Shown here: positions 3,351 to 9,278 of the stretch, one piece after another
Position numbering within the stretch: position 1 is the stretch's first letter
Layout: every line of letters begins with the position of its first letter
Assembly (NCBI GenBank): GCA_020072765.1
Contig: JAIQGD010000003.1
Location: 1-64,000, forward strand
DNA length: 64,000 nucleotides
Direction of reading: 5' to 3'
Source: Terriglobia bacterium
Lineage (GTDB): Bacteria; Acidobacteriota; Terriglobia; Acidiferrales; UBA7541
Program-made: the position numbers and the translations under genes
The notes under the pieces: generated by a model
What the model was told of the DNA's origin: nothing
Databases searched by the model: none
The model's input: the letters and a program-made list of their open reading frames with translations, nothing else

Positions 3351-3441
3351 GCGCGTGGAATGGGTGCGGATAACTTTAGGGGCGCTGCTGGCTGCGCCCT
3401 GCTCGGCTGCACGATTTACCAGCTACTGCCGGGCCATCACG

Positions 3442-5142
3442 CTAGACCTCGGTCGGCTTGCTATCCAGCACCAGTACCGCGCCCTTCGACATCGGCTGCA
3501 CGGTGCGCTGGTAGATCGATAGGTATCCGGTGGCGTGGGGCAATTGCGGCTCACCCAGACGCGCCCGGCGCGCGGCCAGTTCCGCCGGCGGAACATCGAG
3601 ATCCAGCAAATGATTGTCGACGTCAATCGTGATGCGGTCGCCGTTCTGCACCAGCGAAAGCGGCCCTCCCACAGCCGACTCGGGAGCCACCTCTGCCACG
3701 GTCAATCCTTTGTTGCACAGCCCGGACAACTGGCCGTCGCTGACAAACGCCACCTGCTGCTGCAAATCGGCGGAGTCTAGCGCGAAGACCACCTGCGACG
3801 CCGGGCCCGCCATCCCCGGCCCGCCCTTGACTCCCATCCCGCGCACGACGAGCACGTTTCCGGCTTTGACTTCCCCGTTCGCGATGGCTCGCATCGCCTC
3901 GCCCGCCTCGTCGTACACAATCGCCGGACCGGAAAATCGCGTCTGGCGATCCGGCCCGCGCAGGCCCAGCTTCACGATGGCGCTTTCCGGCGCCAGCGTG
4001 CCGCGCAGCACCACGATCGGCGGCTTGTCGGAAAACGGACGCCCGATCGGGCGAATCACCTGCTCGTTCTGCACGACAACCTCGGCCAGATTCTCCCCCA
4101 CCGTCTTCCCGGTGACCGTCATCGCCTTCAGGTCGAGCCGTGGCGCGAGTTGCTTCATCAGCGCTCGCGCGCCACCCGCCGCTTCGAAATCTTCGATCGA
4201 GTCGTCGCCGTTGGGCCGCACCGCGCTGAGCACCGGAATCTTTCCGCCCAGGTCGTTGAACATCTTGTAGATGTCGACGTCCACCCCGGCCTCCACCGCC
4301 GTGGCCTGCAAGTGCTTGATGCAATTGATCGAGCCGCTCACCGCCAGCACGGCCGCCACGGCGTTATGAAACGCCCCCGGCGTGAGAATGTCGCGCGGCT
4401 TGATGTCTTCCAGCACCAGTTCGACGATGCGCTGGCCGGATCGCCGCGCCATCTCCACCATCCTCGGGCTATTCGCCAGCACTGGCGCGCTGCCCGGCAG
4501 ACTCATGCCCAGCGCCTCGCACACCACGTGCATGGAGTTGGCGGTCGCCATTCCCTGGCACACCCCCGGCCCGGTGATGGCGTTGTCGCACATGGCCCGC
4601 AATTCCTCGCGCGAGAGTTTGCCGAACGATGCCTGGATCGATCCCAGAAACACGTCCTCGATATCGACATGCTTGCCGTTCACCTCGCCGCATGGCTGGT
4701 AGCCGCACATCACCAGAATGGACGGGATGTTGAACCGCCCGGCCGCCATCAAGTGGCCCGGAGGCGTTTTGTCGCACGAGGACAGGCAGATCATGCCGTC
4801 CAGCTGCGCTCCCTCCACCGCGATTTCCATGTCGTTGACGATCAGATCGCGGCTCGGCAGGATGTACCCGCCCGCGTGGCCCGCGCTGATGATGAAATCG
4901 CTCGGCGCCGCCGTGCGAATCTCAAACGGCACGCCACCCGCCGCCCGCACCGCGTCCTTCACAATCTTGGCTACCCCGTCCAGATGGCTGAAGCAGATCG
5001 CGAGTTCCGAGGAACTGTTCACCACGGCGATCTTGGGCTTCTTCATGTCCTCGTCGGTGAGACCCAGCGCGCGCCACTGCGCGCGCCGCGCCGCCTCGCG
5101 CGGCGACCCCGGCGGAAAATTGCTGCGTAGCGCCTTCGTCAT
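3442..5142 (-). CDS. IlvD/Edd family dehydratase (dihydroxy-acid or sugar-acid dehydratase)
   Basis: A 566-aa Fe-S dehydratase that removes water from a 2,3-dihydroxy acid. The three cluster-ligand cysteines expected in the family are present at about Cys50, Cys123 (in the SCDKTPPGH motif) and Cys195 (GPGVCQGMATA). GKHVDIEDVF and SDGQLSGL near the C-terminus are also typical. It lies 48 bases downstream of an aromatic-acid-type MFS carrier in the same direction, which suggests co-transcription. True biosynthetic ilvD usually sits with other branched-chain genes, which are absent here. A catabolic sugar-acid or other hydroxy-acid dehydratase is therefore at least as likely, and I give no symbol. 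Confidence 0.85.
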   Translation of the reverse strand: MTKALRSNFPPGSPREAARRAQWRALGLTDEDMKKPKIAVVNSSSELAICFSHLDGVAKIVKDAVRAAGGVPFEIRTAAPSDFIISAGHAGGYILPSRDLIVNDMEIAVEGAQLDGMICLSSCDKTPPGHLMAAGRFNIPSILVMCGYQPCGEVNGKHVDIEDVFLGSIQASFGKLSREELRAMCDNAITGPGVCQGMATANSMHVVCEALGMSLPGSAPVLANSPRMVEMARRSGQRIVELVLEDIKPRDILTPGAFHNAVAAVLAVSGSINCIKHLQATAVEAGVDVDIYKMFNDLGGKIPVLSAVRPNGDDSIEDFEAAGGARALMKQLAPRLDLKAMTVTGKTVGENLAEVVVQNEQVIRPIGRPFSDKPPIVVLRGTLAPESAIVKLGLRGPDRQTRFSGPAIVYDEAGEAMRAIANGEVKAGNVLVVRGMGVKGGPGMAGPASQVVFALDSADLQQQVAFVSDGQLSGLCNKGLTVAEVAPESAVGGPLSLVQNGDRITIDVDNHLLDLDVPPAELAARRARLGEPQLPHATGYLSIYQRTVQPMSKGAVLVLDSKPTEV

Positions 5143-5190
5143 CTTCGTCCCCCCATGGGTAATTCCACAAAACGATTTGCGAAACGAATG

Positions 5191-6555
5191 CTATTCCGAA
5201 ACCGGCTCCGTCGCGCGGCCTCCCTCGGGCTCCGCGCCGGGCGCCTTCGCCATGACATTCGCCAGCAGGAAAATGATCGCCGCGGTCGCCAGCGTCGGCA
5301 GCGCCGCCAGCAGGAACAGCTGGCTGGGCGCCCACTTCAGCGCCAGCAGCGCCCCCGCAATCGTCGGCCCGATGATTCCGCCGATGCGCCCGATTCCGAT
5401 GGCCCAGCCGCTTCCGGTGGCGCGAGTTCGCGGCGGATAGATGTGGCCCGACATGGCGTTCATGATGTTCTGATCGCCGATCAGAAAGAAGTAGAGGAAC
5501 GCATAGATCGTCAGGAAAGCGGCGTAACTCGAGCCGAATTTTCCCAAGACCAGCAGCAGCGCCGCGCCCAGCGCATAGCCGATGGTCGCCACGCGAAACG
5601 GCTGCCACGATACGATCAATCGCGCCGCGGCAATCGAACCGAGCAAACCGGCTCCCTGCGCCGTCGCCGTAATCGCCACAATTTGTTTCGGAGTAACGCT
5701 CATGCCGGTGAGCAGCGTGGGCAGCCAGTTGGTCAGCGAAAACAGGGTAATCAGGCTGACGAACAGCGCCATCCACAGCAGGCTCGTCCGCCGCGCGTAG
5801 CCTCCCCGAAACAATTCCGGCACCTGATTTTTTTTCTCGTACGCCTGCTCCATGAAAAACCGGCTGCCGGCCGCCGCGTGGTTCCCCGGCGCCAGCCGCG
5901 CGAGGATGCCGGCAATCTCACCGCCGCGCGTCCCGCGCGAGATCAGGTAGTTGAGCGACTCCGGCAGCGCCAGGATCAACACCGGCGCCAGCAGAATCGG
6001 CATCGCCCCGCCGGTGTAGAACACGGTCCGCCAGCCAAACCTCAGGATGTAGGCATTGACGACGCCCGCGAAGACGCCCCCAATCGTGTAGCCGCAATAC
6101 ATCACCATGGTCAGCGCGGCCCGCACGCGCTTGGGGCAATAGTCCGACGCGATCGTAATCGCGATCGGCGCGGCGCCCCCCAGGCCGAGGCCCGCAATCA
6201 GCCGCCAGAAGATCACCATCGAATACGACGAGGAAAGCGCCGTCGCCAGCGTCGCCAGGCCGAAATCCAGCCCGCAGGCGATGAACACCCGCTTGCGCCC
6301 CCAGCGGTCTCCCGCGATCCCGAACACGAGCGCCCCCAGCATCAGGCCCAGCTGTCCCGCCGAGAACACCACGCCCAGCGCGGCTTTCGAAATCGCCAGT
6401 TCCTTGGCCAGCCCCGGCGCCGCGTAGCTGATCGCGTTCAGATCGAACCCCTCGAAGAAAAGCAGGCAGGCGCACAGCCCGACCACGCGGATGTGAAACC
6501 CGTTGAGGCGGCTCTGATCGATCAGTTCGGAGACATTGACGTCCGCTGCGTCCAT
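5191..6555 (-). CDS. MFS transporter, aromatic acid:H+ symporter type
   Basis: A 454-aa inner-membrane carrier with about 12 hydrophobic helices. The N-terminal FFEGFDLNAISYAAPGLAKE stretch matches the AAHS (PcaK/BenK-like) signature, with an acidic residue in helix 1 (EGFD), and the loop 2-3 motif reads GDRWGRKRV. The start at 6555 is chosen over 6594 because AGGGA precedes it and homologues begin near 'VSELID'. It is followed 48 bases later by the IlvD/Edd dehydratase. It probably imports an aromatic or other small organic acid with protons; the substrate is inferred only from family and neighbourhood. Confidence 0.84.
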   Translation of the reverse strand: MDAADVNVSELIDQSRLNGFHIRVVGLCACLLFFEGFDLNAISYAAPGLAKELAISKAALGVVFSAGQLGLMLGALVFGIAGDRWGRKRVFIACGLDFGLATLATALSSSYSMVIFWRLIAGLGLGGAAPIAITIASDYCPKRVRAALTMVMYCGYTIGGVFAGVVNAYILRFGWRTVFYTGGAMPILLAPVLILALPESLNYLISRGTRGGEIAGILARLAPGNHAAAGSRFFMEQAYEKKNQVPELFRGGYARRTSLLWMALFVSLITLFSLTNWLPTLLTGMSVTPKQIVAITATAQGAGLLGSIAAARLIVSWQPFRVATIGYALGAALLLVLGKFGSSYAAFLTIYAFLYFFLIGDQNIMNAMSGHIYPPRTRATGSGWAIGIGRIGGIIGPTIAGALLALKWAPSQLFLLAALPTLATAAIIFLLANVMAKAPGAEPEGGRATEPVSE

Positions 6556-6877
6556 TCCATTCCCTGTTCGTGCGTGCCGGACCCGCGGGCCCATTCAGCT
6601 CACCCGCGTCGCGCAGCGTAGCAAAAAAAAACCAAAAGGGCCAACGTCCGACCGCGCCCGGCATCGCGGCGCGGCGTGTCACTGTGCCGGAACGCCGCGA
6701 ACAACGCTAGGCATCCCGGCAATATTGGAGTTAGAATCCCCCCCAGATAAGCGCGATGGCAAGGCGTTGGGCGGTATTGCAATTGTACTTCGATGCTCCG
6801 CTGCCAGGCGAAGTGGGACGCGGCACCCGGGCATCAACGGTTTGATGCCGTAGAAAGCGACAAGGAGGAAGACAACC
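6556..6877 (+). other. intergenic region between divergent genes; strong ribosome site only
   Basis: This gap of about 320 bases separates the divergent MFS carrier and the selenoprotein candidate. The only clear signal is AAGGAGG at 6862-6868, 9 bases before the ATG at 6878. No convincing sigma-70 promoter, palindrome or RNA structure was seen. Short frames on both strands look like shadows. Confidence 0.5.
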
Positions 6878-8653
6878 ATGAATCGGCGGAAGTTGTTGAC
6901 CCTGCTCGGCGTTTCTCCAGCCTTTTTGACCGCGGCTCCGGCTGGTGCGCAACCGGCCGAAAAAGCCGGCAGCGTTGCGCCTGCGAATAGCACTGGCCTG
7001 CTGACCGCCATGAACCCGGCCATCGCCGGAAAACTGGCGGAGCGGTTTCCTCTGCAACCGCGCCTCAATGCCCTCGACGGCAAGACCATCTACCTGATCG
7101 ACATCCAGTGGGGCGGCCCCGACGCCGCCTACAGCGTTTGGGAGGAAGTGCAGGCGTGGTTCGCCCAAAACATGCCCAGCGTCAAGACCGTCCTGCGGCG
7201 CACCACCGGCAACATGTTCACCGACGACCCCGGCATGCGCAAGGAAATGATCGACCGAAAGGTGGATGCCGCCATTGTCGGCATCGCTGGTTGAAACGGC
7301 TGCGCGTCGGCCGTCGGCCGGCATGCCAAGAAGATCGAGCTCGAGTGCAAGATTCCCACGGTCGCTGCTTCCGCTTCCAACATCGTCCGGTACGCCACCG
7401 GGTATGACTTCCAGTACAACAACGGGATGCCCATCCGCTTTGTCGCCTTCCCGTTCCCCGTCGCCGGCCAGCCCAAGTCCGTGCACAAGCAGTACGTCGC
7501 CGGCAAGGACATGGTCAGCGGAAAGCCCATGATGCAGATGATTGTCGACGGGCTGACCAGACCGCTCACCGAACAGGAACAAATCAAGGGCATGCCGCCG
7601 GGCGCCGTCACCGAACCCCGCCTGCTCGCGCCGGATTCCGAGGACAACCTCCAGCGCCTGTTCAAAGACAAGGAATGGACCGACTACAACCCGATCATTA
7701 TCCCCACCGAAGAGCGCGTGGCGAAAATGCTCCAGGGCACCAGCCACAAGCCCGATGAAGTCGTCGCCAAAATCAACCTGACCGGCGGCGCCAGGCAACT
7801 CACCGTCGAAAAGGTGGCCATCGCCGCGGTGATGGCGGGGGCCAAGCCTGAATACTTCCCGCTCATCCTGGCGATTGCCACCAGGGCGCCCTTCGGCAAC
7901 TCCACCACCTCGATGGCCAACATGATCATCGTGAGTGGACCCATCCGCAAGCAGTTGGGGTTGAATTCCGGCACCAACGCCATGGGCCCCTACAACGAAG
8001 CCAATTCCGTGATCGGCAGAACCTTCACGCTGATGTCCAAGACCGCGGGGGACCTCCGCAATAACGTCGTGGCCTGGGAGTCGCTCGGCAACAACCTCCA
8101 GTACAACAATCTCTGCTTCGCGGAAAATGAGGAAGAGTTGCCCGCCGGCTGGGATCCCCTCAACGTGCAGCTCGGCTACAAGTCCACCGACAACGTGGTC
8201 ACCATCGGCACCGGCTGGAGCTACATTTCCAGTCTGGGCGAGGCCCAGCGCTCCTATCCGCCTCACATGCTGATGGGTGACTACATGAGGGCGCTTTCGG
8301 CCTTCGGATCGGCCGCCACCATCGTCATGGACCCCACCGTCGCCGGACTGCTCAAGGACGTCTACGGCTTCAAGACCAAGGCCCAGTTGAGCGAGTGGTT
8401 CTCGCACAATGTCGAAAAAACGGTCGCCTCCTACTGGGGCAACGGCGTCATCGCCACCACCAACACGGCGCTGGCCATCCAGGGGCTGGAGCCTTTCGCC
8501 AGCTGGAAGAAATTGCCGGGGGACACGCTGATTAAACCGTTCGACAACCCCAAGAGCATCCACGTGGTCGTGGCCGGCGGGAAAATCCAGACCACCTGGT
8601 TCGTCACCGACTTCCGCTTCTCCGACGGCGTGCTCGTGGATAAGTGGACGTAG
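6878..8653 (+). CDS. probable selenoprotein, UGSC family (in-frame TGA = Sec139), Tat-like signal
   Basis: A single frame of 591 residues is interrupted only by TGA at 7292-7294. Upstream lies a twin-arginine-like leader (MNRRKLLTLLG, AGA cleavage site) and an alpha/beta region. Around the TGA the reading is VGIAG-U-NGCASAV, placing Sec139 three residues before Cys142 in a U-x-x-C redox motif. The flanks (DAAIVGI before; HAKKIELE.KIPTV after) resemble the UGSC (seleno)protein family, whose motif is U-G-S-C. A hairpin at 7298-7327 fits a bacterial SECIS. Residues of about 270-590 form a second conserved-looking domain (YNEANSVIGR, FAENEEELPAGW). The ribosome site is strong (AAGGAGG). The alternative is a nonsense mutation; the 453 open codons after the stop and the motif argue against it. 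Function is unknown, presumably redox outside the cytoplasm. Confidence 0.8.
7298..7327 (+). promoter_or_regulatory. candidate bacterial SECIS hairpin
   Basis: Directly after the in-frame TGA the RNA can fold into a lower stem GGCUGC/GCA(U)GCC (7298-7303 with 7321-7327), a GCGU bulge, and an upper stem CGGCC/GGCCG (7308-7312 with 7316-7320) closed by a GUC loop at 7313-7315. The loop starts 18 bases after the TGA and its first base is G. Both points agree with the published bacterial SECIS model (G in the first loop positions, roughly 16-37 bases from the UGA). GC-rich DNA forms hairpins easily, so this is supportive rather than conclusive. Confidence 0.6.
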
Positions 8654-8723: not shown

Positions 8724-9278
8724 ATGAAGTTTCGATTTCTGGCGGGTTCACTGCTGGCCGTAGCGATGCTCGCGCCGTTGCCGGCTGCCTCCCGCGCGCC
8801 GCAACCGGCTCCGCAGCAAAAGACGACTCCTCCGGCCAAGAATGCCGGCGGCCAATCCAGTGCCGCCAAAAGCGCCGCCAAAGAGGAGCAGCCGTATCCC
8901 CAGGTACTCCGGATCACGGCCGAAGAGGTCAAGCGGATGATCGAGCAGAAGGCCGACATCGTGCTGGTGGACACGCGGGATAGCCTCAGCTACGACGACG
9001 GCCATCTCCAGGGCGCCATCAACATCTACTACGATCCGACCGTAGATCCCAGCGAGCGCGAAATGACTCTGGTCGCGCTCCCCATGAACAAGCTCGTCGT
9101 GCTCTACTGCGAGTGCAACAACGAAGAGGATAGCGCCCCGATGATCCTCGAGCTCTGGAAACTCGGCTACGACCACGACAAGGTCAAAGCCTTGCGCGGA
9201 GGCTCGATCCGCTGGCGCGAGCTCGGCTATCCTTTCATCAGCACTCCCACCAATCCCGCCGCGGAAAAGACAAAGTAG
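8724..9278 (+). CDS. exported rhodanese-like protein
   Basis: A 184-aa protein with a cleavable-looking signal peptide (hydrophobic residues 6-20, Ala-Ser-Arg-Ala end) and a Pro/Ala/Lys-rich linker, then a rhodanese domain from about residue 60: VLVDTRDSLSYDDGHLQGAIN and a final RGGSIRWRELGYPF. The active-site loop reads YCECNNEEDSA, so the candidate catalytic Cys129 is followed by an acidic loop instead of the Arg-Ser of classical sulfurtransferases. GAGGTGGAG precedes the ATG. It begins 70 bases after the selenoprotein candidate on the same strand and is probably co-transcribed. It may transfer sulfur or selenium, or only bind; this cannot be decided from the sequence. Confidence 0.82.
   Translation: MKFRFLAGSLLAVAMLAPLPAASRAPQPAPQQKTTPPAKNAGGQSSAAKSAAKEEQPYPQVLRITAEEVKRMIEQKADIVLVDTRDSLSYDDGHLQGAINIYYDPTVDPSEREMTLVALPMNKLVVLYCECNNEEDSAPMILELWKLGYDHDKVKALRGGSIRWRELGYPFISTPTNPAAEKTK

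Follow-up and report, generated by a model that had tools for sequence, protein, structure and literature searches.

UGSC/"Unknown_1" fusion selenoproteins were reported in 2008 (PMC2398784), and in the same Global Ocean Sampling (GOS) paper the UGSC domain was proposed to be thioredoxin-like. Selenoprotein status, the UGSC family and the UGSC fusion are accordingly already known, and the two-domain architecture of the GOS fusions (Figure S1A of that paper), which came from aquatic metagenome fragments and, in the relevant passages, lack data on genomic context, copy number, kinship and partners, is probably the same as that of the gene described here. Among about 5,200 organisms surveyed, 33 UGSC proteins were counted in 26, i.e. 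~1.3 per genome (PMC5029168, ISME J), and large selenoproteomes are, according to reviews, mainly a feature of anaerobes (PMC13188914). Other comparable systems are selenoprotein B of glycine/sarcosine/betaine reductase and D-proline reductase PrdB (PF07355), as well as Tat-exported selenoproteins, of which Escherichia coli formate dehydrogenase FdnG is an example.

The protein of the present locus is alike the UGSC family (PF24696, NF041046, GOS "UGSC-containing") in its UxxC motif with Sec or Cys at the same column, but has N-G instead of G-S in the middle of the motif, a fused C-terminal domain, and a Tat-like leader. With GrdB/PrdB it has a homologous Sec-bearing region in common, whereas its second domain is different. 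A leader of the twin-arginine type, by which the protein would be sent out of the cytoplasm, is a further likeness to FdnG, although the FdnG protein and cofactor are unrelated. Copy number, GrdB kinship, a partner gene, and an exported PQQ-linked form were not found for the family in the open-access literature searched.

The window analysed was a 64,000-nucleotide stretch of a Terriglobia bacterium (Acidobacteriota), located on contig JAIQGD010000003.1 (C133) of a 3.78-Mb assembly with a completeness of 96.6% and a contamination of 0.23%. The features of the locus are collected in Table 1. The residues around the in-frame TGA are VGIAG-U-NGCASAVGRHAKKIELE, and thus the literal U-G-S-C motif is not met by this U-N-G-C protein. 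A preliminary description, made from sequence alone, had proposed a selenoprotein encoded by a single frame broken only by TGA, with a ribosome site at the first ATG, a twin-arginine-like leader, and a second conserved domain of about 320 residues, which standard annotation would report as two broken genes or as a 610-codon antisense frame. The frame and the ribosome site were confirmed, and the split ORFs (138 and 408 amino acids) and the antisense frame of 610 codons were all present in the window as described. The second domain was confirmed and is conserved, with a length of ~370 residues, and the leader held as a motif typical of the genus, export itself being inferred.

Table 1. Features of the UGSC-fusion locus (positions in the window)
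Feature	Position	Strand	Basis
Ribosome-binding site AAGGAGGA ahead of the ATG	6862..6869	+	Sequence read directly
UGSC-fusion selenoprotein gene	6878..8653	+	591 residues with Sec139 (Sec reading very likely); frame 6878-8650, stop TAG 8651-8653
Twin-arginine-type leader MNRRKLLTLLGVSPAFLTAAPAGAQ	6878..6952	+	Sequence; pattern match only
UGSC domain, residues 47-207	7016..7498	+	Pfam PF24696, structure model, hhalign, weak NCBIfam matches
Single in-frame TGA (codon 139), very probably read as selenocysteine; U-N-G-C motif completed by Cys142	7292..7294	+	
bSECIS-type hairpin GCGCGTCGGCC-GTC-GGCCGGCATGC	7302..7326	+	Score 23.6, z 4.1 against synonymous shuffles
C-terminal domain, residues 222-591	7541..8650	+	Conserved (alignments A3, A4), structure model, Foldseek
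Rhodanese-like protein with leader, 70 nt downstream of the selenoprotein gene	8724..9278	+	NCBIfam

Searching the genome with the window protein identified 15 family genes including the window copy, each with one in-frame TGA, and located on C133, C72, C140 (two), C49 (two), C96 (four), C12, C16, C36, C78 and C106. The motifs among these paralogues were UNGC, UHGC, UPGC, UDGC, USTC, UGGC and UGSC. Among 147 distinct homologues, the aligned Sec column was TGA in 119, Cys in 19, and another residue in nine, of which some are misread fragment ends. Since the TGA occupies the same column in 15 genes of one genome and in 119 of the 147 homologues, with conserved sequence on both sides, the frame is not a product of chance. 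In four pairs compared on both sides of the TGA, 0.19–0.33 of the nonsynonymous sites were changed against 0.50–0.63 of the synonymous sites, which demonstrates purifying selection on both sides (pN well below pS), with the reservation that dS was near saturation. The family tree requires five Sec/Cys changes, and a full-length Cys form is found in Neorhizobium plasmids. Five loci had Leu, Asn, Met, Ser, Ala or Gly at the Sec column (L088, L100, L130, L146, L207), and another activity is possible for these.

A rival view takes the gene for an ordinary Cys gene in decay, into which a nonsense mutation or a fault of assembly has brought the TGA, and it is in accordance with the two pieces given by a standard gene caller. 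Against it stand the TGA column common to fifteen paralogues in one genome and to more than 100 homologues of several phyla, the pN values well below pS on both sides, and the retained SECIS hairpin; the shared TGA column already refutes this view, which can practically be ruled out. A reading as two separate genes was likewise rejected, as the two-gene form of haloarchaea is split behind the UGSC domain and not at the TGA.

In the second alternative, TGA would be translated as a residue other than Sec, by codon reassignment or general read-through, and indeed a frame that is open under TGA recoding does not name the inserted residue. However, TGA is also a stop in this genome, because five of the 15 paralogues terminate with it, most relatives without TGA have Cys in the column, and the Sec machinery is present, so that this alternative is very improbable. 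The machinery comprised a tRNA-Sec with anticodon TCA (69 bits, in agreement with ARAGORN), SelB matched over 578 of 581 positions and above the curated cut-off, and SelD and SelA, both above their curated cut-offs. Taken alone the machinery is necessary but weak evidence, because the majority of the class has SelA regardless of the family's presence, and its distribution does not track that of the family. In four genomes of the set (G007, G009, G018, G022), SelA was matched in two adjacent pieces of one frame near position 160.

Decoding of the window TGA as selenocysteine is in consequence regarded as very likely on sequence evidence, with no experiment showing Sec incorporation. The selenoprotein interpretation of the preliminary description was supported as a whole, and the two checks it had proposed, the Sec machinery in the genome and the TGA column in homologues, were both positive, the latter showing Sec or Cys in almost every relative. 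The 15 paralogues, the SECIS hairpin, the GrdB/PrdB kinship, and the neighbouring genes had been beyond its sight.

The hairpin of the window gene has a 3-nt loop starting 18 nt behind the TGA, with GU as its first bases, and all 15 copies of the genome are able to form a hairpin behind the TGA. In the Sec members, a hairpin of the bacterial SECIS type starts 16–23 nt behind the TGA, and is kept beyond what synonymous codon choice would give. Scored on the published bSECIS loop-and-distance model (PMC13188914), 115 Sec members had a mean of 16.0 against 9.4 for synonymous shuffles, whereas for 19 Cys members the mean was 6.0 against 6.6. These averages include member sequences that are related to one another. 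As the choice of loop window followed inspection of the genome's own 15 hairpins, the fair test is given by the position control and the outside-genus set: the mean z at the TGA was 2.47 within and 1.68 outside the genus, against values near zero at −90, −60, +60, +90 and +120 nt and in Cys members outside the genus. With relatedness removed, five independent Sec/Cys contrasts remained, and the hairpin followed in four (sign test p 0.125). By free energy alone behind the TGA, Sec members differed no more from synonymous shuffles than Cys members, and an Rfam search of the window gene returned no SECIS family. A tandem array on an Acidobacteria contig (L114; 185-1924, 2063-3820, 4005-5729) contains two Cys copies and one Sec copy, with weak hairpin scores of 2 and 7 for the Cys copies against 17 for the adjacent Sec copy.

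The UGSC membership claimed for the protein held in Pfam, where PF24696 was matched with 32.8 bits (cut-off 25), but failed for the NCBIfam UGSC equivalog NF041046 (21.7 bits, cut-off 125), and this wide miss of the cut-off is one reason why annotation may fail. All 88 members of the family alignment A2 matched PF24696 at E ≤0.1. Family members also had weak NCBIfam matches to GrdB, PrdB, GrdF and GrdH. When aligned by hhalign with eight GrdB-like Acidobacteriota selenoproteins, a probability of 91 (P 1e-6) was obtained, with Sec falling on Sec and Cys on Cys. By sequence, the UGSC domain is hence a distant homologue of the GrdB/PrdB selenoprotein B, a kinship that is new here. The GrdB/PrdB family model PF07355 gave no match in the window protein by Pfam search and none in its genome. 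The short GrdB-like Acidobacteriota proteins with a U-P-x-C motif running through TGA (L161, L163, L167, L168, L171, L173, L175, L176) resemble a further group of selenoproteins that would be truncated in annotation.

The full-length structure model (pLDDT 91.4, pTM 0.88) predicts an alpha/beta UGSC domain, with Sec139 between a strand at 131–137 and a helix at 140–157. The plausible PDB neighbours of this model in Foldseek were lumazine synthases, presumably of the UGSC domain. Together with the order of strands and helices they point to a Rossmann/lumazine-synthase-like domain, the aligned regions not being given. SHMT and fumarase, as top Foldseek matches of both models, were set aside due to TM-scores of ≤0.25 by query length. 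In the C-terminal domain (model pLDDT 92.4), the residues D269, T277, T288, T309, N363, N376, R381, E416 and W425 are near-invariant. The domain is without a Pfam family, its model had no convincing PDB match in Foldseek (TM-scores ≤0.28) and gave no functional hint, and sequence searches of the PDB found nothing. In haloarchaea, the UGSC and C-terminal domains are encoded by neighbouring genes.

The structural data bear on a further rival, in which the protein would be an antioxidant thiol oxidoreductase resembling thioredoxin or peroxiredoxin, and not a catabolic reductase. In favour of it are the UxxC motif, the thioredoxin-like nature proposed for UGSC (PMC2398784), and a thioredoxin-reductase-like neighbour in other phyla. 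On the other side, Sec139 is placed in a parallel-looking alpha/beta domain with lumazine synthase-like neighbours, no thioredoxin was among the 50 best PDB neighbours of the full-length model, the kinship is with GrdB/PrdB, and a large second domain together with 15 to 20 diverged paralogues better suits substrate diversity. An antioxidant function is consequently considered unlikely.

The family is also expanded elsewhere in the phylum. TGA-bearing members were found in most of the 19 congeners searched, in many of them ten or more, and PF24696 was matched in 13 of 20 genomes of the genus. In a second Acidobacteriota genus, two genomes had 20 and 18 TGA-bearing matches, respectively, and all 30 readable matches of this genus had the TGA at one column. 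The 15 Sec copies here and the 18–20 in two genomes of the second genus, against ~1.3 per genome surveyed, are a new finding, and such a large gene set is easily split or left out by annotation.

A Tat-like leader was matched, by pattern only, in 33 of 53 family members within the genus and in none outside it. Export of the folded window protein through its twin-arginine-type leader is likely, as inferred from the sequence. PQQ dehydrogenases adjoin seven of the 15 own copies (C72, the four on C96, C12, C16), at a distance of 18 nt on one strand at C16 and interleaved with the family genes at C96. A further PQQ dehydrogenase is within about 4 kb of the copy on C106, whereas none was found near the copies on C140, C49, C36 and C78 or near the window copy. 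This combination of Tat-like leaders with neighbouring PQQ dehydrogenases in the genus is shown by sequence and is new here. Outside the genus, hardly any PQQ dehydrogenases were near family members, and instead a thioredoxin-reductase-like (TrxR-like) gene was present at 24 of 70 loci. In most cases it shares the strand of the family gene at a distance of 0–74 nt, and it accompanies Sec and Cys forms alike. This conserved neighbour with its invariant CxxC, in other phyla, is likewise shown and new. No TrxR-like gene was found near the 15 own copies.

The copy on C36 adjoins a DesA/LigM-type O-demethylase, and that on C78 adjoins CofE. Behind the window copy, the rhodanese-like gene is followed by a MetE-like gene, and CoA-transferase, IlvD, MFS (by reading of the sequence) and catechol-dioxygenase-like genes are nearby. 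Relatives of the rhodanese-like gene were found near family copies at three other loci (L064, L073, L128), and at L064 the family copy has beside it a PQQ dehydrogenase with a rhodanese domain fused at the C-terminal end (3389-5833). MetE-like neighbours as the mark of a thiol-conjugate pathway were left aside as too weak, being found at few loci.

The PQQ neighbours allow a rival in which the copies of the genus are accessory to the adjacent dehydrogenases (maturation, redox protection, periplasmic product removal), and not independent enzymes. It rests on the seven adjoining copies and on the close or interleaved arrangement at C16 and C96. Against this, few PQQ dehydrogenases are found outside the genus, where leaderless forms adjoin TrxR-like genes, and eight own copies are without a directly adjacent PQQ dehydrogenase, leaving an accessory role improbable.

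On the whole, the protein is best explained as a UGSC-fusion selenoenzyme, probably exported and most likely acting in catabolism as a reductase or reductive lyase. This reading is likely, with the recoding signature, machinery, hairpin, kinship and gene neighbours shown by sequence, and with export, chemistry, partners and substrates inferred. In the proposed mechanism, SelB and tRNA-Sec would decode the UGA as directed by the hairpin directly behind it, and the predicted product would be a UGSC domain distantly related to Sec-bearing B subunits, joined to the ~370-residue C-terminal domain. Sec139 may attack or reduce an electrophilic substrate of unknown identity held by the C-terminal domain, and Cys142, inferred to form the redox pair, would resolve the Sec139 intermediate to a selenenyl sulfide, to be re-reduced thereafter. 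In many other phyla, the product of the adjacent gene, the TrxR-like flavoprotein, would probably act as the reductant. In this genus the electron donor is unidentified, since no TrxR-like gene is near the own copies and PQQ dehydrogenases are missing at several. Divergence within the genus has given some 15 paralogues, often beside PQQ dehydrogenases, which by inference probably serve different compounds of plant or lignin origin. GrdB-like chemistry for the family is an inference that we hold with some doubt, the balance being slightly against it.

The GrdB/PrdB kinship and the TrxR-like neighbour are the first mechanistic handle found for the family, its function not being known before in the literature searched, and by inference the family probably performs selenium-dependent chemistry outside the cytoplasm. 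A bolder reading, which is possible but not more, is that soil Acidobacteriota have a selenium-dependent periplasmic catabolic system. Each genome would encode 15–20 selenoenzymes related to GrdB, with a separate substrate for each and export of many, and these enzymes would cooperate with PQQ dehydrogenases and contain a C-terminal fold not described before. If true, this would represent a new class of reductive selenoenzymes acting on small molecules in presumably oxygen-exposed bacteria. The present soil-type MAGs with PQQ dehydrogenases would test the rule that large selenoproteomes are mostly found in anaerobes.

Two leaderless copies of the genome (L066) have terminal C-x4-C tails (CSEGTCGLP and CADGSCGLP). 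The closest named relative (L078), at 69% over its best segment, comes from a MAG carrying the title Gammaproteobacteria SJ34, and either transfer or a mislabelled bin is possible. The conjugative IncP plasmid p2-T1 of Acidovorax sp. T1 (L063) also carries a UGSC-fusion gene whose motif contains TGA, and no gene is annotated beneath the match (6001-6624).
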